From Spirochaetales bacterium Spiro_12 (lineage in GTDB: Bacteria; Spirochaetota; Spirochaetia; Treponematales; Rectinemataceae), in contig LVBN01000082.1 in the NCBI GenBank assembly GCA_001603165.1, positions 1-35,453 on the forward strand: DNA of 35,453 nt, read 5' to 3'. Position 1 is the first letter of the stretch; each line of letters opens with the position of its first letter. This document shows, in pieces, positions 25,601 through 35,453 of the stretch. The notes below the pieces were generated by a model. It had not been told where the DNA came from and did not search any database. It saw only the letters and a program-made list of their open reading frames with translations. The translations under genes were made by a program, and so were the position numbers.

Positions 25601-26947
25601 ATGAATTCCTACATCAAGCAAGTGCTCGACGATCTCAAGGCTCGCTATCCCTGGGAGAGCGAGTTTTTGCAGGCCGCCGAGGAAGTGCTCGAGTCCATCG
25701 CTCCGGTAATCGAAGCGGAGCCTAAATACAAGGCTCAAAAGATACTGGAGAGAATCGTCGAGCCCGAGCGCAGCATTATTTTCAGGGTGCCTTGGGTGGA
25801 CGACAAGGGTGAATACCATGTAAATCGTGGGTACAGGATTCAATTCAATTCAGCTATCGGTCCCTATAAAGGCGGTGTCCGCTTCCATCCCAAGGTCACG
25901 CTTTCGACCCTGAAATTTCTCGGTTTTGAGCAGACCTTCAAGAACAGTTTGACCGGACTCCCCATGGGCGGCGGCAAGGGCGGTTCGGACTTCGATCCCA
26001 ACGGCAAGAGCGACAACGAGATTATGCGATTCTGCCAGAGCTTCATGTGCGAACTCTATCGCCATGTGGGCGCCGACGTGGATGTTCCCGCCGGGGATAT
26101 CGGCGTGGGCGGCAGGGAAGTCGGGTATATGTTCGGTCAGTACAAGCGCCTGGCGAACGAGTTCACCGGGGTATTCACCGGTAAGGGGCTTAGCTTTGGT
26201 GGTTCGTTGATCAGACCCGAGGCCACCGGGTATGGCGCCATCTATTTCGCCAACGAGATGATGAAGGAGCAAAAGAAGAGCCTGGAGGGCAAAGCGATCG
26301 CCGTCTCGGGCTTTGGCAACGTGGCCTGGGGCGCCTGCATCAAGGGCAGCCAGCTGGGCGCCAAGGTGGTGACTATTTCCGGCCCTGACGGCTATGTCTA
26401 CGATCCCGAGGGCATCGGCACGGAGGAGAAGTGGGACTATCTCAAGGAAATGCTGGTGATCGACCGGAACAAGGTCGAAACCTATGTGCGCAAATTCCCC
26501 AAGGCTCAGTTTTTCGCCGGGAAAAAACCCTGGGTGCAGAAGGTCGATATCGCGATGCCCTGCGCCATACAGAACGAGCTCAACGGTGAGGATGCGAGGA
26601 CGCTCATCGCCAATGGCGTTTCCACCGTCGTCGAGGTGAGCAACATGGGATGCACCCCCGAGGCCTGGAAGCTCTTTATCGAAAAGGGCATTCCTTTCGC
26701 GCCGGGAAAGGCCGCCAACGCCGGTGGCGTGGCGACCAGCGGTCTCGAAATGAGCCAGAATTCGATGCGCTTGTCCTGGACGGCCGAGGAAGTGGACGAA
26801 AAACTTCACGCGATAATGCGCAATATCCACAAAGCCTGCGTGGAAACCGCATCGATGTACGGTTTCGAGGGCAATTATGTCGTGGGCGCCAACATCGCCG
26901 GGTTCAAGAAGGTCGCCGACGCCATGCTGGCCCAGGGGCTGGTGTAA
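25601..26947 (+). CDS. gdhA: Glutamate dehydrogenase (hexameric, probably NADP-dependent)
   Basis: Interconverts 2-oxoglutarate plus ammonium and glutamate; in anaerobes this is mostly the assimilatory direction. The 448 residues match the small hexameric class. Motifs are GPYKGGVRFHP (88-98), the catalytic Lys of PMGGGKGG (K126), the catalytic Asp in VPAGDIGVGGRE, a Rossmann segment VSGFGNVAWGA and PGKAANAGGVATSGLEM. The ribosome site aaggagg lies 5-6 nt before the ATG, the strongest in the window, suggesting high expression. It is monocistronic, with its own promoter, an upstream dyad and a clear terminator. NADP preference is inferred from the class. Confidence 0.96.
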   Translation: MNSYIKQVLDDLKARYPWESEFLQAAEEVLESIAPVIEAEPKYKAQKILERIVEPERSIIFRVPWVDDKGEYHVNRGYRIQFNSAIGPYKGGVRFHPKVTLSTLKFLGFEQTFKNSLTGLPMGGGKGGSDFDPNGKSDNEIMRFCQSFMCELYRHVGADVDVPAGDIGVGGREVGYMFGQYKRLANEFTGVFTGKGLSFGGSLIRPEATGYGAIYFANEMMKEQKKSLEGKAIAVSGFGNVAWGACIKGSQLGAKVVTISGPDGYVYDPEGIGTEEKWDYLKEMLVIDRNKVETYVRKFPKAQFFAGKKPWVQKVDIAMPCAIQNELNGEDARTLIANGVSTVVEVSNMGCTPEAWKLFIEKGIPFAPGKAANAGGVATSGLEMSQNSMRLSWTAEEVDEKLHAIMRNIHKACVETASMYGFEGNYVVGANIAGFKKVADAMLAQGLV

Positions 26948-27133: not shown

Positions 27134-28423
27134 ATGACCGTAATTCGAGAGAAAGCGACCCTCGCGGGCAGCATAGAAGCGCCGCCCTCCAAAAGCCTTA
27201 CCCAGCGGGCGATAGCCTGCGCGGTATTGGCCGCTGGTCGTAGCCGGCTGCGGGCGAATTCCCTCTGCGCCGACGCCAGTTCCGCGCTTAAGGTGGCCCG
27301 GGCCTTAGGCGCCGTCGTGGAGAGGGAGGGCTCCTGGATTTCCATAACAGGGTCTCCCTTGTTCAGGGAACTCGCCGCCCAGCCGCTGGAAGACAGGGGC
27401 GAGGCCCCTATGGACCTGGATTGCGGCGAATCGGGGCTCTGCATGCGCATGTTCAGCCCTATCGCCGCCCTTCTGCCCAGAAGCACGCGGCTGTTAGCCT
27501 CAGGCTCCCTCTCCGCGAGGCCGATGGCCATGATGGAGGAACCTCTGAGAAGCCTTGGGGGGAGCTGCGGCACCAGGGAGGGCAAGGCTCCTATTTCGAT
27601 CCGCGGCCCCCTGCGGGGCGGATTTCTGGCGATGAACGCGGGGGGCAGTTCCCAATTCCTGACCGGCCTTTTGCTCGCCCTTCCCCTGGCCGGGGAGGAT
27701 TCCGAGATATTGGTCCACGGAACGGTGAGCCGCGGATACCTGGACCTCACTATTTCCTCCGCCCGGGCCTTCGGCGTGACGATCCGGCGGGACGAGGACT
27801 ACGGTCGTTTTACCCTGCCCGGGAAGCAAAGCTATAAAGCCACGGAGTTCGAGGTGGAGGGAGACTGGAGTTCGGCCGCCTTTCTCGTGGTCGCCGCGGC
27901 GCTGGCGGCTTGCGATGAGGGAGTGCTGATTCGAGGTCTCGACAAGGACTCGCAGCAGCCCGACAGGGCGGTGCTGGACGCGGCGGCGGCGGCGGGTACT
28001 CCCTTCGAATTTCGGCACGATGCGCTCAAGGTGGGAAGGGCTTCGCTCAAGCCTTTTAGCTTCGACGCCACCGACTGCCCCGATCTTTTCCCGCCCCTCG
28101 TCGCGCTCGCCTCGGCCTGCCCGGGCGAGACCGAACTCAAGGGTGTAGGTCGGCTGGGGGGCAAGGAGAGCGACAGGGCTGCCAGCCTCATGGCTATGCT
28201 GAAGCATCTCGGAATCGGGTCTGAAATTCGCGGGGACAGAATGCATATCCACGGCGCCAGACCTTCCGGCGGTCGCGTGGAGGCCTGGGGGGATCACCGC
28301 ATCGCCATGGCCGCCGCGGTGGCGGCTCTGGCCGCCGAAAGCCCGGTGGTCATCGAGGGGGCGGAGTGCGTCGCCAAATCCTGGCCTCGGTTTTTCGAGG
28401 ATTTCGATTCCCTGAAAGCCTGA
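27134..28423 (+). CDS. aroA: 3-phosphoshikimate 1-carboxyvinyltransferase (EPSP synthase)
   Basis: Joins shikimate 3-phosphate and PEP to EPSP, the sixth shikimate step. The 429 residues are normal length. Motifs are APPSKSLTQRAI (substrate-binding Lys-Ser), the PEP loop CGESGLCMRM (about residues 97-106), GSSQFLTGLLLALPL, the catalytic acid region DATDCPDLFPPL, the KESDRA motif and WGDHRIAMA. In the PEP loop, the positions equal to T97, A98 and P101 of E. coli are Leu, Cys and Met, unlike the common NAGTAMRP. The start has AAGGAG 12 nt upstream. It stands alone on the plus strand, convergent with the five-gene aromatic operon. Confidence 0.95.
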   Translation: MTVIREKATLAGSIEAPPSKSLTQRAIACAVLAAGRSRLRANSLCADASSALKVARALGAVVEREGSWISITGSPLFRELAAQPLEDRGEAPMDLDCGESGLCMRMFSPIAALLPRSTRLLASGSLSARPMAMMEEPLRSLGGSCGTREGKAPISIRGPLRGGFLAMNAGGSSQFLTGLLLALPLAGEDSEILVHGTVSRGYLDLTISSARAFGVTIRRDEDYGRFTLPGKQSYKATEFEVEGDWSSAAFLVVAAALAACDEGVLIRGLDKDSQQPDRAVLDAAAAAGTPFEFRHDALKVGRASLKPFSFDATDCPDLFPPLVALASACPGETELKGVGRLGGKESDRAASLMAMLKHLGIGSEIRGDRMHIHGARPSGGRVEAWGDHRIAMAAAVAALAAESPVVIEGAECVAKSWPRFFEDFDSLKA

Positions 28424-28464
28424 TCAAGACGCGGCCCATGCGCGGAGCGTGAGGAGAGAGCTAA

Positions 28465-28487
28465 GCCGCCCCTGAGCGGCGATATTC
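28465..28487. terminator. Weak hairpin between converging aroA and tyrA
   Basis: gccgc (28465-28469) pairs with gcggc (28476-28480), followed on the plus strand by gatattctttct. The short stem makes it a weak candidate terminator for aroA. Confidence 0.3.
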
Positions 28488-28533
28488 TTTCTCCTGTTGT
28501 CGGAGTAGCCGCTAAAACCAAGCTACCCCGGCG

Positions 28534-29310
28534 TTAATCGGCGATATTCTTCCGCAGGGTATCCAGGAATTTTTTCATCTCTTCGTAATCCCGTTGACGT
28601 ATTATGTGGGTGAGATAACTCAATTTCGAGTTGATGAGTTCCAGCTGCCGGATTGTGTGCTGGTTGAACATTATTTCGGTAAGCAGCCTGTCGTCTTCGG
28701 CGAGCAGACCCTTGGCGGAGGCCATGTGCCGCTTGAAGTTGGTCCCTGGGGCTTCTTGTTTTCGCATGCAGGCGGCGAAGACCATGCTGGAGGCGAAGGG
28801 GGTGGCCAGGGAGTAGGCGACGGTTTTATCGTGCTCCTCGAAACTGTATTCGAAGATTTTTATGGAAAGCCTGCTGTAGAGCTCTCTGAAAAAAGCTTTT
28901 CCCGCTTCGCAGGATTCGGAGATGATGATCGCGCTCTCGTCCTTCAGGTCCCTGATATTCGCCAGGGTGGGCCCGAACATGGGGTGGCTGGAGACAAAGG
29001 GTCTGCCCAGCGTCCCGTAATAGTCCTGGAGCCCGTTTTTGACCGAGGCTATGTCAGCCAGAATACAGGATTCGGGAATGTGGGGGAGGACCGTGTCGAA
29101 AGCCTTGGTCGTATTGCCCAGGGCTACCGAATTGATGAAGAGCTCGGGTTTGACCTGGTCCAGTTCGGCCAGGTCGAGAATCCGGTGCACCTTCATGAAG
29201 TACTTCATCTTGAGCGGATCGGCGTCGTGCACCCACACCTCATGGTTCCAGCAAAGCTCTTCGGTGAGCCAGGCGCCCATTTTGCCCGTGCCGAGTATGA
29301 ATATTCTCAT
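28534..29310 (-). CDS. tyrA: Prephenate dehydrogenase
   Basis: Oxidatively decarboxylates prephenate to 4-hydroxyphenylpyruvate, the tyrosine branch. The 258 residues have an N-terminal NAD(P) loop GTGKMG (7-12), the stretch LADIASVKNGLQ and the prephenate-binding SSHPMFGPT motif, then the helical dimer domain. It is compact, with no chorismate mutase or ACT domain, so mutase activity must come from pheA. Its ATG overlaps the pheA stop (TAATG), and it is the last gene of the operon. Feedback by tyrosine is not evident from the domain set. Confidence 0.92.
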   Translation of the reverse strand: MRIFILGTGKMGAWLTEELCWNHEVWVHDADPLKMKYFMKVHRILDLAELDQVKPELFINSVALGNTTKAFDTVLPHIPESCILADIASVKNGLQDYYGTLGRPFVSSHPMFGPTLANIRDLKDESAIIISESCEAGKAFFRELYSRLSIKIFEYSFEEHDKTVAYSLATPFASSMVFAACMRKQEAPGTNFKRHMASAKGLLAEDDRLLTEIMFNQHTIRQLELINSKLSYLTHIIRQRDYEEMKKFLDTLRKNIAD

Positions 29311-30365
29311 TACTGTATCCTCGTTTCTCTGTAGCAGCCGAGTATTCTGAAATCCTCGGCCATGGCGGAGACTGCCTTGACCGCGGCTTCCACCCTGGGA
29401 TCTTTGATCGAGCCTTCGAAATCGATGAATATCGCGTAGGTGCCCGGCTTGTCGGGCACCGATTCGATCCTGGTCAGGTTGATCGACGCCTTGGCGAAGA
29501 CGCTGAGCACGGCGAAGAGGGAGCCGGCTTTGTCACCGGCGGTGAAAACCGCCGAGCAGCGGTCGCCATCCTGATCGTCCTCATCCATGGAAAGGACGAA
29601 AAAGCGGGTCCTGTTGTGCAGGGAATCCTGGATGTCTTCCTTGATAATCTCCAGGCCGTACAGGTCGGCGCAGAGCTTGCTGGCTATGGCGGCGACTCCC
29701 TTCGGCCTGAGTTCGGCGAGATCCCTGGCCGAACCTGCGGTATCGTAGTGTTGCTGGGGCTCGAGGCGATTGCGGGCGATGAAATTCCTGCATTGCGAGA
29801 GGGCCTGGGTATGCGATCGGACCTGCCTGAGCTCGCGGTGATCGGCGCCGGGGACACAGAGCAGGCAGTGTCTTACGGGCATGTCGATGGCGGCGATGAT
29901 CTTGAGATGGGTATAGATGAGAATCGAGTTGACAGGACCCACCAGGCCGCCCAGGGTGTTCTCCACGGGAACGATGCCGCAGTCTATCAAGCCCTCTTCG
30001 ATCATGTCGAACACATCGGTGAACTCCCTGCAGGGAATCATGGCGCCGCTGGGGTAGAGGGCGCGGGCCGCCACCTCGCTGTAGGCCCCATGCTCTCCCT
30101 GGAACCCGATGGTCCTCTGGTCGGTCGCCTGGATCCTTTTTGTCTCGCTGATAATAGTCTTGTAGAGCCCTTCGGCGAAATCGGGCTCCAGAAGGCAATG
30201 GCTGGAATGCCTGATCTTGTCGAGCACCAGCGTTTCGCGGCTCGTATCCTCGATGGTTTTCTTGAGCTTCTTGGTGAGCAGGGCTTTTTCGATGCGCTGG
30301 TTGAGCAGGGAAGTGATTTTCATATCGATCTTGTCGATATCCAACCTCAGGTCCTCGAGGGTCAT
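29310..30365 (-). CDS. pheA: Bifunctional chorismate mutase / prephenate dehydratase (P-protein)
   Basis: Converts chorismate to prephenate and on to phenylpyruvate. The 351-residue protein has an AroQ-type chorismate mutase helix bundle (about 1-85, LRLDIDKIDMKITSLLNQR), a prephenate dehydratase domain (about 90-270, FQGEHGAYSE, VPVENTLGG, the catalytic TRF in NRTRFFVL) and a C-terminal ACT domain (GSLFAVLSVFAKASINLTRI). The regulatory ESRP motif reads ESVP, and the loop after it is short, so Phe inhibition could be altered. I chose the ATG at 30365 because it overlaps the aroC stop (ATGA) and has GGAGG five nt upstream; the ATG at 30377 would add four residues. Confidence 0.94.
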   Translation of the reverse strand: MTLEDLRLDIDKIDMKITSLLNQRIEKALLTKKLKKTIEDTSRETLVLDKIRHSSHCLLEPDFAEGLYKTIISETKRIQATDQRTIGFQGEHGAYSEVAARALYPSGAMIPCREFTDVFDMIEEGLIDCGIVPVENTLGGLVGPVNSILIYTHLKIIAAIDMPVRHCLLCVPGADHRELRQVRSHTQALSQCRNFIARNRLEPQQHYDTAGSARDLAELRPKGVAAIASKLCADLYGLEIIKEDIQDSLHNRTRFFVLSMDEDDQDGDRCSAVFTAGDKAGSLFAVLSVFAKASINLTRIESVPDKPGTYAIFIDFEGSIKDPRVEAAVKAVSAMAEDFRILGCYRETRIQ

Positions 30366-31375
30366 GCTTGCCTCCATGGATTTTTGTTACCGCGCGTATA
30401 TAGGCCGCGATCGATGAGATAGAGATCGGCCAGGCCTATGGCCGTCGCCGCTTCCAGTACCACGGCGCTTCTCAGGGCGATGCAGGCGTCATGGCGGCCT
30501 TCGATGATAAGTTCGGTCATTGTTTCTTTATTAAAATCATAGCTGTACTGGGCCCGGGCGATGGAGGACGCCGGCTTGACGGCTACGCGCAGCAAAAGCT
30601 CGTTGCCGTTGCTGATGCCCCCATTGATTCCCCCCGCGCCGTTCTTGTCCGTCCTGCCCGAAGCGTCCACGATCGGGTCGTTGTGTTCCGAGCCGAACAT
30701 GCCCGCCGCGGCGAAACCGTCCCCGAATTCGAGGGCCCGTACCGCAGGCACGGCGAACAGCAAATGGGCGAGGACGCTTTCGCAGGCGTCGAAGAAGGGT
30801 TCCCCGAGTCCTACCGGCAGCCCCCGCACCCTAATCTCCACGATCGCCCCTACCGAATCGTCCCGGGCAACCGCCTCGGCCACCAACTCGTCCAGGGATC
30901 TGCCCTCGCGGCCGGGGCGCACTAAGGTGCCGAATTCGGCGAACGGAAGTATTTTCTTCGCTATCACTCCGGCGGCAACCAAGCCCGCGGTGATCCGTCC
31001 GGAAAAATGCCCGGAGCCTCTGGGATCGGAATAGCCCGAGTATTTTTCCATGCTGGTAAAATCGGCATGACCCGGTCGGGGTACGGCGCGGAATTGATCA
31101 TAGTCGACGGAACGGGTGTCCCTGTTGGGAATGCTTAAGGCGATCGGGGAGCCGGTGCTGTAGCCTGCGTGCACCCCTGAGTGGATGCTTACCAGATCCG
31201 TTTCCTTACGAGGCGTCGTGCCGGCGGCTCCCGCCCTTCGCCTTGCCATATCCGTTTCGAAGTCCTCGACCGAAAGCGGCAGGCCCGGAGGGCAGCCATC
31301 GATTATGGCCCCCACCGCCGGGCCATGGGATTCGCCAAAAAGCTCCACCCTGAAGAGTCTTCCGAAACTGTTCAT
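30362..31375 (-). CDS. aroC: Chorismate synthase
   Basis: Forms chorismate from EPSP with reduced FMN as cofactor. The 337 residues show MNSFGRLFRVELFGESHGPA at the start, RRRAG, RPGHAD and a GSGHFSGRITAG segment where many enzymes have GRSSARETA; the former type is known from some anaerobes. It also has NGGISNGNEL. Slightly short for the family but with no gap in the core motifs. The start overlaps the aroB stop (ATGA) and the stop overlaps pheA, indicating translational coupling in the operon. Confidence 0.95.
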   Translation of the reverse strand: MNSFGRLFRVELFGESHGPAVGAIIDGCPPGLPLSVEDFETDMARRRAGAAGTTPRKETDLVSIHSGVHAGYSTGSPIALSIPNRDTRSVDYDQFRAVPRPGHADFTSMEKYSGYSDPRGSGHFSGRITAGLVAAGVIAKKILPFAEFGTLVRPGREGRSLDELVAEAVARDDSVGAIVEIRVRGLPVGLGEPFFDACESVLAHLLFAVPAVRALEFGDGFAAAGMFGSEHNDPIVDASGRTDKNGAGGINGGISNGNELLLRVAVKPASSIARAQYSYDFNKETMTELIIEGRHDACIALRSAVVLEAATAIGLADLYLIDRGLYTRGNKNPWRQA

Positions 31376-32436
31376 AGCCTATCCCCCAGCAGGAAGGAAA
31401 GCAGTTCCTCCGCCGGAATTTTTTCGATCTTCACCGCCCCGATTCCTTCGGGCAGAATGAAATGCACGAATTCGCCCTCTCTTTTTTTGTCCATGAAAAA
31501 AAGATCGGCCGCCTTTTTCCGCAAAGATCCATCCGCATCGACTTCCCCGATATTGACCGGAAGTCCGTAGCGAGCGAGAAGGTTCAGGATCCTCCGCATA
31601 TCCCCTTCCTTCATCCTCCCCTTGGCGCGGGCGTAGGAGCAGGCGAGAGCAATGCCCAGCGACACGGCAAAGCCGTGGGGCATGCCGCTGGCGGATTCCA
31701 GGGCGTGTCCGAAGCTGTGCCCCAGATTGAGCAGTCTGCGCGCGCCCGATTCTTTCGGATCCCGGGCGACGATTTTCAGCTTGAGCCGCTGAGAAAGACG
31801 GACTATCCCTTCGAGGGTCTCGGCGGGGCAGCCCTGGAAATTCAAGCCTCCTTCGCCGCCGTACCTTCGCGCGGAGTCTTCCAAATACGCGAAGTGATCC
31901 TCCCCCTCCAGTATCCCGTGTTTTATCGCCTCGGCCATACCCGAGGCGAATTGCTCCGGTTCCAGGCTCCGCAGCGTTTCCACGTCGCAGAAAAGCCTTC
32001 GGGGAAAGTGAAACGAGCCTATGACATTTTTGTATCCGCGGTAATCGAGACCGTTTTTTCCCCCCAGGGCAGCGTCGCACATGGCTAAAAGGGTCGTGGG
32101 AACCGCGAAAAACCCTATGCCCCGCATCCATATATGGGCCGCGAAGCCGGTGGTATCGCTGATCGAGCCGCCGCCCAGGGCGAGAACACTCCACGAGCGG
32201 TCCACCCTGTGTCGGAGGAATCCGTCCAGAAGGCTGGGGAGCGCCTCGATGTTTTTAGCGATTTCGCCTTCTGGTATCAGTACGCAAGGAAGGGCGGGGA
32301 AATGGCGGCCGTAGAGGCTATAGATTCTTTCGTCGCTCACCAGCAAGGTCTTCGCCGCGTCCATCCGTCTCGCGACATCGCCCAGGCCGCAGAAAAGCGG
32401 GCTGATATCGTCTTTTGCCCGAATGAGAGGCTCCAT
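31372..32436 (-). CDS. aroB: 3-dehydroquinate synthase
   Basis: Cyclises DAHP to 3-dehydroquinate using NAD and a divalent metal. The 354 residues include the NAD loop GGGSISDTTGFAA (commonly GGGVIGDLAGFVA), PTTLLAMCDAALGGKNGLD, MAEAIKHG with the metal-binding Glu, and the HxxxH pair in GHSFGHALE. The start at the ATG 32436 overlaps the aroF stop (TGATG); a TTG one codon earlier is less likely. The sequence is complete and should be active. Confidence 0.94.
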   Translation of the reverse strand: MEPLIRAKDDISPLFCGLGDVARRMDAAKTLLVSDERIYSLYGRHFPALPCVLIPEGEIAKNIEALPSLLDGFLRHRVDRSWSVLALGGGSISDTTGFAAHIWMRGIGFFAVPTTLLAMCDAALGGKNGLDYRGYKNVIGSFHFPRRLFCDVETLRSLEPEQFASGMAEAIKHGILEGEDHFAYLEDSARRYGGEGGLNFQGCPAETLEGIVRLSQRLKLKIVARDPKESGARRLLNLGHSFGHALESASGMPHGFAVSLGIALACSYARAKGRMKEGDMRRILNLLARYGLPVNIGEVDADGSLRKKAADLFFMDKKREGEFVHFILPEGIGAVKIEKIPAEELLSFLLGDRL

Positions 32437-33434
32437 CAATCCACCGAATCCTTGAAATGCCCGATTTCGGAGCGATCCGGCGCGGCGCCGCCGGAGGAAT
32501 CGTCGACCATCCTGTCTTTCCGGCCGCCCCGGCCGGCGTCCTCGGGAAAGCTGCCTTGTCGTCCGCCGGCCCCGCGATCCTTCGCCTCTGTCGGCGCCAT
32601 CTCCCCCGAGTCGATCTTGTCGTCCAGCTCAAGCATGAAGAGACGGGTCGCCTCTAGTTTTTTCATAAGACGCTCGAATTGGGCCGGGGAGAGTTGCTGG
32701 TCCTTGTCGCTCAAGGCGCAGGATGGATCGATGTGCACCTCGATTTCGAGCCCGTCGACACCGGCCACCAGGGCAGCCAGGCTCATGGGTTCTATCATGC
32801 TCAAAATACCCGTGCCGTGGCTCGGATCGATGAAAATGGGCAGGTGGCTTTCCTTGCGCACCGCGGGAATCATGGAGAGATCGAGGGTGTTCCGGGTATA
32901 GGTTTCGAAGGTGCGGATGCCGCGTTCGCAGAGCAGAACATTGGGATTTCCTTCGGCGAGGATGTATTCGGCGCAGTTCAGCCATTCCTCCAGGGTGGAA
33001 TACATGCCGCGCTTGAGCAGAATCGGTTTCCCCGACTTGCCCACCTCCCGGAGGAGGGAGAAATTCTGCATATTCCTGGCGCCGATCTGAAGAACATCGG
33101 CGTATTCGCCCACCCAGGAGACATCCCTGGTATCGACCACCTCGGTGACGATAGGAAGCCCCGTCTCTTTTCTTGCCTTGTCCAGGATTTTGAGTCCCTT
33201 GAGTCCCAGGCCTTGAAAAGCGTAGGGGGAGGTCCGGGGCTTGAAGGCCCCGCCCCGAAGCATCTTGGCTCCCGCCTTTTTCACCGCGATCGCGGTCCTG
33301 ACCGTCTGCTCCTCCGATTCCACCGAGCAGGGGCCGGCTATCACCACAAATTCGCCGCCGATTTTCACGCCACTTACATCGATGACGCTGCGGCTGAAAT
33401 CCGCTCTCCCCGCCGCGAGCTTCAAGTTTTTCAT
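32436..33434 (-). CDS. aroF: DAHP synthase (type I-beta, AroF/KDO8P-like)
   Basis: First enzyme of the shikimate pathway, condensing PEP with erythrose 4-phosphate. The 332 residues hold the TIM-barrel core with [44 protein letters not shown] and the metal-binding IDPSHGTG. It lacks the N-terminal ferredoxin-like and fused chorismate-mutase domains of some relatives. After the core there is a charged, Gly/Asp/Arg-rich tail of about 60 residues with no known domain. The ATG at 33434 is chosen since it has a GGAG site and starts the family-like sequence; 33482 would add 16 unlikely residues. It is the first gene of the aroF-aroB-aroC-pheA-tyrA operon. Confidence 0.92.
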
Positions 33435-33504
33435 TGATTTCTCTCTCCAACGACTGGCCGGCCTTGACGGTCGACTTGTCATTTTCCTGCCAATAGTAGG
33501 GCCG

Positions 33505-33576: not shown

Positions 33577-35453
33577 ATGCTTCAGCTTCCGTTTACGATT
33601 CCTCTGGTTTATCATGACCGCATGTATTTCAACGAACTTGTCAACGCCTACGACAGACAGCGGAGGGAACGAAACATCTACCACGATCTCATGCGCTTTC
33701 GGGTGAGGGAGGTCCTGCTGGTGGGAAGCCTCTACGATTCCTTCGTGGTGGAGTCCGACGGCATATTGACCGAGCAAATCTACGGCGAATACTTCAAGCT
33801 CAATCTCAATACAATTCCCAGGGTAACCTGCGCCTATACCGAGGAATCGGCCATGGACCTCTTCCGGGGCGGAAGCTTCGATCTGGTGATTCTCATGGCG
33901 GGCATCGATTTCGATCTTCCTCTGCGTTTGGCCAAGGCGATGAAGCAGATATGGCCCGATATACCCATTCTTCTCATGGCGACGAACAATTCCAGCCTTG
34001 AAAAGCTGGACATGGACTCGCCGGACCTCGCGGCGATCGACAGGGTTTTCGTGTGGAATGGGTATTCCAAGCTCTTTGTGGGAATGATCAAGTATGTGGA
34101 AGACCTGAGAAACGTGCAGGCCGATACCCTGGCCGGAAGGGTGCGGGTGATCCTTCTCATAGAAGACTCGGTGCGCTTCTATTCCCGTTTTCTTCCGGTC
34201 CTGTACAAGGTCGTTCTCAAGCAGACCCAAACCTTGATCGAAGAGGAAAAGGTCACCGAAACATACAAACTGCTCTCCATCCGGGCCAGGCCGAAAATTC
34301 TCCTGGCTTCGAGCTACGAGGAAGCCCAGGAGCTGTTCGATACCTACGAGGGGAATCTGCTCGCGGTCATCACGGACTTGCGTTTTCCCCGCCGCGGGGT
34401 TTACGACGAAGAAGCCGGCTTCGATTTTCTTGCCATGGCGAAGGCGAGAATTCCCGATCTTTCGATCCTCGTACAGTCCAGCGAGCAGGCGATAAGGCAG
34501 AAGGCCTATGCGATGGGCGCTTCCTTCGCCGACAAGAACTCCGAATCCCTGGAGATGGAGCTTGCCACCTTCCTGCAGGAGAATCTCGGCTTCGGCGCTT
34601 TCCGCTTTTGCCTCCCCGACGGAACGGAGCTGAACAGGGCGCGCAACATGAAGGAGTTTATCGATATCCTCCACGTGCTTCCTCCCGAAAGCCTGGCCTA
34701 CCACGCCGAGCGCAACCATTTTTCCGCCTGGCTCATGGCCCGCGGTGAAATTCTCATGGCCAAGGTGCTGCGTCCTTATAGAATCAGCGATTTCCCCGGC
34801 CTTCAGGCGATGCGCGACTTTATCGTGAAGATCCTGGACAACGTGCGCAAGGAAAAATCCCGGGGCATTCTTCCCAACTTCGACGAATCCATGATGAGGG
34901 AGGAAAACTACGTCAGCAGGCTTGTGGACGGATCGGTGGGCGGCAAGGGCAGGGGAATCATATTCATACGTTCCCTGCTGGAAAATCTTGAATTCTCCCG
35001 CTATATCAAGGGCATAGATATCAAAATCCCCCGCACGGCCTTCATCGGCATAGACGAGTTCGAGGTGTTCCTGGAGACCAACAATCTCTGGACTTCCTCT
35101 TTCTACGGGCCCCAGACCGGGGAGCTGAGGCGCACTTTCGTTTCCATACCGCTTTCCCGGCCGTTGGTGGCCAAGCTGAAACATTTTCTGGCGGCTACGA
35201 CAAAGCCCCTGGCGGTGCGTTCCTCAGGCCTCTTCGAGGATATGCTCATGGTGCCATTTTCCGGCATTTACGACACCTATATAATCCCCAACAATCACCC
35301 CGACCCCGAAGTGCGGCTCAACCAGCTCTGCGATGCGGTAAGACTGATCTTCGCCAGCCTTTTCTCCTCCGAGGCGCGCTCGTACTTTGAAATGACCGGT
35401 TATAACCTGGAAGAGGAACGCATGGCGGTGGTGATCCAGGAACTGGTGGGTTC
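33577..35453 (+). CDS. Receiver-domain / PEP-synthase-like (PPDK N-terminal) fusion, 3' end outside window
   Basis: An open frame that runs off the window; about 625 codons are seen. Residues ~43-180 form a receiver-like domain whose phospho-Asp position is Met (DLVILMAG, residue ~107). Residues ~189-330 form a second receiver with acidic pocket E196-D197, phospho-acceptor D267 (ITDLRFP), S301/S302 and K320 (FADKN), plus a ~27-residue insertion. A helical linker follows, then a PPDK/PEP-synthase nucleotide-binding domain with GGKGRG (near 465) and AVRSSGLFED (from 546). This predicts a cytosolic ATP-dependent phosphotransferase under two-component-type control; the function is unknown. The ATG at 33577 has CCGGAG nearby; 33622 is an alternative start. 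It is divergent from aroF. Confidence 0.85.
   Translation, partial: MLQLPFTIPLVYHDRMYFNELVNAYDRQRRERNIYHDLMRFRVREVLLVGSLYDSFVVESDGILTEQIYGEYFKLNLNTIPRVTCAYTEESAMDLFRGGSFDLVILMAGIDFDLPLRLAKAMKQIWPDIPILLMATNNSSLEKLDMDSPDLAAIDRVFVWNGYSKLFVGMIKYVEDLRNVQADTLAGRVRVILLIEDSVRFYSRFLPVLYKVVLKQTQTLIEEEKVTETYKLLSIRARPKILLASSYEEAQELFDTYEGNLLAVITDLRFPRRGVYDEEAGFDFLAMAKARIPDLSILVQSSEQAIRQKAYAMGASFADKNSESLEMELATFLQENLGFGAFRFCLPDGTELNRARNMKEFIDILHVLPPESLAYHAERNHFSAWLMARGEILMAKVLRPYRISDFPGLQAMRDFIVKILDNVRKEKSRGILPNFDESMMREENYVSRLVDGSVGGKGRGIIFIRSLLENLEFSRYIKGIDIKIPRTAFIGIDEFEVFLETNNLWTSSFYGPQTGELRRTFVSIPLSRPLVAKLKHFLAATTKPLAVRSSGLFEDMLMVPFSGIYDTYIIPNNHPDPEVRLNQLCDAVRLIFASLFSSEARSYFEMTGYNLEEERMAVVIQELVG

Follow-up and report, generated by a model that had tools for sequence, protein, structure and literature searches.

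Receivers joined to a PPDK output

REC-PPDK response regulators have been noted in Bacteroides, and 'Bacteroides-like' ones in 'Ca. Heimdallarchaeota' (PMC5847659). PPDK output domains have also been associated with Asp-less receivers (PMC4395418). The gene described here lies at the end of a contig of Spirochaetales bacterium Spiro_12 (LVBN01000082.1, 35,453 nucleotides; this whole stretch is called the window). As far as the available parts of these surveys describe their proteins, it shares with them the fusion of REC to PPDK_N and the presence of an Asp-less receiver in the class. The descriptions in the same parts (PMC5847659, PMC4395418) include neither a competent second receiver nor the C-terminal domain, and mention no loss of the His domain and no linkage to gdhA; a search of open-licence papers gave no report of a gdhA link for REC-PPDK. 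The REC-PPDK architecture is already known, and the genome context beside gdhA is the new part.

Other described proteins resemble parts of the chain. With PPDK, PEP synthase and rifamycin phosphotransferase the protein has in common a PPDK_N domain with the ATP-site Lys, Arg, Glu and Gln. It differs from them in having no swivelling phosphohistidine domain and no PEP/pyruvate TIM barrel, in its added receivers, in a different C-terminal domain and, within the window's order, in a Lys at the last ATP-site position, where the PPDK_N enzymes have Arg. The first receiver (REC1) is receiver-homologous and without the Asp pair, acceptor Asp and Lys, as in pseudo-receivers; unlike these, it is coupled in one chain to a second receiver (REC2) predicted to be competent, and its Trp160 is also found in Bacteroidales. 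The linker resembles the DUF5752 family and OrfY (PDB 4cso) in a profile match that covers part of the family model only.

Organization of the gene and its domains

The open reading frame at 33577-35451 on the plus strand reaches the contig end, and the 3' part of the gene is cut off. The window ends in 60 bases that are identical to the first 60 of the reverse-complemented contig C122, and the two contigs joined at this exact overlap give one frame of 1016 codons. The remainder of the gene lies on the minus strand of C122 (locus L006, 6537 down to 5364), and three other genomes hold the gene uninterrupted (L008-L010). Through the overlap and these orthologues the full gene was recovered, of which the initial annotation had only the truncated frame. 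Residues are numbered with the ATG at 33577 as the first codon. Relatives share a start at Met16 (33622), which gives a probable length of about 1001 aa. Its domains follow in the order REC1, REC2, DUF5752-like linker, PPDK_N and C-terminal domain (Table 1). An AlphaFold2 model of the full-length protein from three sequences reached a pLDDT of 32. Searches of Rfam around the gene start, of viral contigs for relatives and of defence systems gave no match.

Table 1. Positions in the window of the gene, its domains and its neighbours
Feature	Position	Strand	Basis and remarks
gdhA, family I NADP-specific glutamate dehydrogenase	25601..26944	+	NCBIfam PRK09414 equivalog (720.8 bits, cut-off 536); linkage
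Shikimate/Phe/Tyr cluster	27134..33482	aroA +; tyrA, pheA, aroC, aroB, aroF -	ORFs; gene names read by eye from translations
REC-REC-PPDK_N gene, 5' part	33622..35453	+	Alternative ATG 33577; contig-end overlap; uninterrupted orthologues L008-L010
REC1 pseudo-receiver	33700..34110	+	hhalign with receivers of the same genome (probability 95.6%); residue columns; about residues 42-178
REC2 receiver	34138..34596	+	hhalign (95.4%); AlphaFold2 and Foldseek; conservation; residues 188-340
Linker, weakly DUF5752-like	34597..34896	+	Profile against PDB 4cso (OrfY), E=3.5e-4; residues 341-440
PPDK_N, N-terminal part	34933..35451	+	K457, R548; whole domain 453 to about 825

REC1 matches Pfam Response_reg below threshold (19.9 bits). 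Gly50-Ser51 replace the Asp pair in the window, Met107 stands at the acceptor position (33895-33897) and Trp160 at the Lys position. The same pattern, with Gly or Ala before the Ser, is present in 28 of 28 relatives; the acceptor Met and Trp160 are retained in Bacteroidales, and four other spirochaete sequences have Thr at the acceptor position. The loss of the acceptor Asp that had been read from the window holds in all 28 relatives, and REC1 is a conserved pseudo-receiver and not a decaying one.

REC2 carries Glu196-Asp197, the acceptor Asp267 (34375-34377), Ser301 and Lys320 (34534-34536), together with an insert of about 40 residues after strand 1, which is probably why Pfam misses the domain. 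Its AlphaFold2 model has a pLDDT of 79 and a pTM of 0.75, and the Foldseek matches to PDB listed at E<=0.001 are receiver-fold proteins. The initial annotation had read the region of residues 189-330 as a receiver fold with a complete phosphotransfer site. The fold held up in hhalign, AlphaFold2 and Foldseek, and the acidic pair, acceptor Asp, Ser and Lys are all present. E196, D197, D267 and K320 are invariant in 28 spirochaete relatives, with Ser (27) or Thr (1) at position 301, and the site residues are identical in three Bacteroidales proteins, so that the conservation of the acceptor Asp extends across two phyla. REC2 is predicted to be a phosphorylation-competent receiver. The sub-lineage of L052 and L053 has Glu-Asn as the acidic pair of REC2, and the receiver chemistry may differ there; in the C-terminal domain of the same two proteins the GPGRWG motif is changed to VAGRLG, with R896 and the His retained.

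The linker scores 14-18 bits against Pfam DUF5752 (cut-off 23) and is below the cut-off in all members tested. Its motif H376-xxx-N380-H381-x-S383 is invariant in the window's order; N380 and H381 are variable outside it. The PPDK_N match, on which the fusion of receivers to this domain had been claimed, was upheld by Pfam at E=5e-20 for the part in the window and, above the cut-off, at 1.7e-30 and 3.9e-32 for two full-length orthologues, which agree on the fusion in one chain. The residues E793, E795, Q813 and Lys815 of PPDK_N are encoded on contig C122, as is the C-terminal domain (the last approximately 170 residues) with R896 and H936. Conservation reaches at least 97% for K457, R548, E554, D555, E795, Q813, R896 and H936 in a set of 46 sequences that covers all architectures. 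We take the roles of the PPDK_N residues from K22, R92, E323, Q335 and R337 of Clostridium symbiosum PPDK. Position 815 is Lys in 28 of 28 proteins of the window's order; it is Arg in Bacteroidales, in all short-type proteins (described below) and in most other REC-type proteins, so that a catalytic position has changed in one lineage. With Lys at the place of PPDK Arg337, catalysis in the window's order may be altered or lost. The C-terminal domain gave no convincing match to PDB profiles.

The full-length proteins gave no match to the PEP-utiliser His domain (PF00391), and a genome-wide search for this domain found it on contigs C100 and C35 only, not at the REC-PPDK locus. The C-terminal domain showed no similarity to the His domain by hhalign, with a template of only 4 sequences. 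No C-terminal PEP/pyruvate TIM barrel was found either, since in the 993-aa orthologues Pfam gives PPDK_N and a weak DUF5752 only. Without the His domain and the TIM barrel the protein is neither a PPDK nor a PEP synthase, and the direct control of PEP/pyruvate flux suggested in the initial annotation is unlikely for a complete protein of this composition.

Linkage to gdhA

The gene family and gdhA were searched in 296 genomes of Spirochaetota and, for Bacteroidales, in three plasmid-collection records. Neighbourhoods were compared in 25 regions, of which 20 are spirochaete regions and three are the Bacteroidales records; the other two are the window and contig C122. Full-length orthologues occur in Spirochaetota and Bacteroidales, which answers how widely the architecture is spread, and they often lie next to gdhA, commonly 50-450 bp apart. 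Proteins L041-L043 of Bacteroidales match the window's protein in domain order and in length, with 34-36% identity from end to end.

Among the cases in Spirochaetota with both genes on one contig, gdhA is no more than 5 kb away from the REC-type gene in 15 of 18 and from the short-type gene in 28 of 28, and the distance is within 1 kb in 32 of the 46 cases, measured between matched segments and not between gene ends. Contig breaks mask the relation in about one quarter of cases. With each family counted once, the linkage is present in 16 of 17 families (p ~1.5e-15, for a chance per family set at a deliberately generous 0.1). gdhA is present in 56 of 58 genomes with the family and in 95 of 238 without it (Fisher p = 6e-17, kinship ignored). 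The gene is linked to gdhA across two phyla, and no other neighbour was seen to be conserved beyond the window's order. The orientations of the pair include co-directional in both orders, divergent and convergent, and therefore no single frozen operon lies behind the linkage. Gaps of 46-252 bp to gdhA were found at L088, L089, L090, L093, L041 and L042; L088 and L089 (46 and 94 bp) probably form operons with gdhA. The gene is divergent from gdhA in Parabacteroides (166 bp) and Phocaeicola (222 bp), and both records hold a second gdhA three to four genes away. Genome G298 has two copies of the gene, each adjoining its own gdhA. The two genes are on separate contigs in G012, G045 and G051 and are 56 kb apart in G321 and 18 kb apart in G292, and no gdhA was found within the region compared at Prevotella L043. 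Tandem REC-PPDK duplicates were seen at G012:C115, with the gdhA of that genome on another contig, and at G020:C178.

A short type of approximately 870 aa (L063-L069, L071, L073) adjoins gdhA in other spirochaete lineages. It has PPDK_N and the same C-terminal domain behind an unrelated N-terminal domain that begins STGxxxLDxIL..GDNVVWQVD; therefore the part that is linked to gdhA is PPDK_N with the C-terminal domain. A KaiC-like identity of the short-type N-terminal domain, seen by eye, found no profile support and was discarded. A longer paralogue of 1033-1082 aa, recognized except for L070 by frame length only, is on the gdhA contig in 0 of 6 cases, and four of the six genomes also hold a gdhA-linked copy, which argues that the linkage is specific. 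PPDK_N proteins of 1033-1073 aa with the same C-terminal domain were seen at L070 and L072, the former with an additional C-terminal nucleotidyltransferase domain; neither was located on a contig with gdhA.

The window's own gdhA is on the same strand as the gene and 6.6 kb upstream of it, and six aro/phe genes separate the two. The adjacent aroF, a user of PEP, had been taken as a hint of function. The aro/phe cluster adjoins the gene in 3 of the 25 regions, the window and two close relatives, and a link to PEP or aromatic biosynthesis was rejected because the adjacency is not conserved; the conserved neighbour is gdhA, and the cluster between the two genes is judged incidental. On C122 pheS and pheT directly follow the gene, as conserved neighbours in the window's order only, and a magnesium-chelatase/ComM-like gene comes after them in several relatives. 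The window's genome has two gdhA copies, on C82 and C14, which are 62% identical.

Proposed function and alternatives

The protein is proposed to be an ATP-dependent, receiver-controlled regulator of the NADP-glutamate dehydrogenase GdhA, and hence of ammonia assimilation, a reading to which we give about an even chance. A histidine kinase encoded elsewhere would phosphorylate REC2 at Asp267, REC1 and the DUF5752-like linker would relay the change to the PPDK_N ATP-binding module, and PPDK_N with the C-terminal domain (Arg896, His936) would use or sense ATP and switch GdhA activity, perhaps by covalent phosphotransfer. The domains, the conserved residues, the lack of the catalytic domains of PEP synthase and the linkage to gdhA are seen in the sequences; from them we infer that REC2 is phosphorylated, that PPDK_N is catalytic and that GdhA is the target. 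Control of GdhA is supported by the two architectures, which have only PPDK_N and the C-terminal domain in common and are both linked to gdhA; linkage by itself does not establish physical action on GdhA. No PII (GlnB/GlnK) homologue was detected in the window's genome (92% complete), where a glutamate dehydrogenase regulator of this kind would thus have a place. A cognate histidine kinase, for which the initial annotation would have looked, was not identified on the window contig or C122, and a motif scan of the 25 regions found none consistently near the gene. The window's genome has 16 loci that carry a HATPase domain, some of which may not be histidine kinases.

A more specific form of this proposal appears unlikely, namely that a receiver-controlled ATP-grasp phosphotransferase modifies glutamate dehydrogenase covalently and reversibly without a change in transcription. 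The PPDK_N fold would then be a protein kinase, and a new acceptor domain would replace the phosphohistidine domain.

Among the alternatives, the strongest, though still somewhat improbable, is that the gene and gdhA share a nitrogen or redox regulon and that the target is another enzyme or a small molecule. Conserved neighbours often belong to the same pathway without contact, divergent arrangements are compatible with shared promoters, and small-molecule enzymes with PPDK_N, such as the prodigiosin ligase PigC and rifamycin phosphotransferase, are among the NCBIfam matches. However, gdhA is the sole neighbour conserved beyond the window's order, and the varying orientation includes convergent pairs, which have no shared promoter.

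It is rather doubtful that PPDK_N is an adenylate sensor and not a kinase. In that case its binding, with REC1 and REC2, to GdhA or to a partner would depend on the ATP level and on the state of phosphorylation. The absence of the phosphohistidine domain and the change of the catalytic Arg to Lys throughout the window's order would fit such a sensor. However, the near-invariance of K457, R548, E795 and Q813 in the 46 sequences is expected under catalytic selection, and so is the Arg815 that all short-type proteins, those of Bacteroidales and most of the remaining REC-type proteins keep; His936 is conserved in the C-terminal domain.

An ATP-fed phosphorelay, in which PPDK_N would phosphorylate His936 or the linker His376/His381 and the phosphate would pass to Asp267 without a histidine kinase, is very improbable. 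Conserved histidines and a competent receiver do stand in one chain, and a histidine kinase is not consistently near, but beyond the window's order the linker residues N380 and H381 vary, and His936 cannot serve solely to feed REC2 because the short type keeps PPDK_N and His936 without a receiver. A PEP synthase or dikinase with receiver-switched PEP/pyruvate flux, tied to the PEP-using aro pathway, has PPDK_N homology and the adjacent aroF in its favour and is hardly credible given the missing His domain and TIM barrel, the PPDK-like gene with a His domain elsewhere in the genome on contig C100, and an aro adjacency confined to those three regions.

Implications for nitrogen metabolism

Regulation of this kind may have been seen in Bacteroides. 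The title of a 1996 paper by Baggio and Morrison names unidentified trans-acting gene(s) near gdhA that affect GDH activity in Bacteroides thetaiotaomicron. The complementing DNA was reportedly about 3 kb long, which matches the length of the REC-PPDK gene. Reversible inactivation of the B. fragilis GDH in vivo was reportedly observed in the 1980s. The REC-PPDK gene is a candidate for the 1996 gene, as a lead only, because in both Bacteroidales records that have a gdhA close by, the gene and the nearer gdhA are divergent and the gene is not downstream. Bacteroides are abundant in the human gut, and the REC-PPDK family gives a concrete candidate for the 1996 effect.

REC-PPDK proteins have so far been classed as response regulators whose output is an enzyme. 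The linkage to gdhA, conserved in two phyla and retained where another N-terminal input module takes the place of the receivers, names a candidate target for them. If the proposed control of GdhA is true, bacteria such as that of the window would control nitrogen by a route that does not involve PII. If covalent modification is also true, phosphorylation in signalling would switch a central nitrogen enzyme without a change in transcription.
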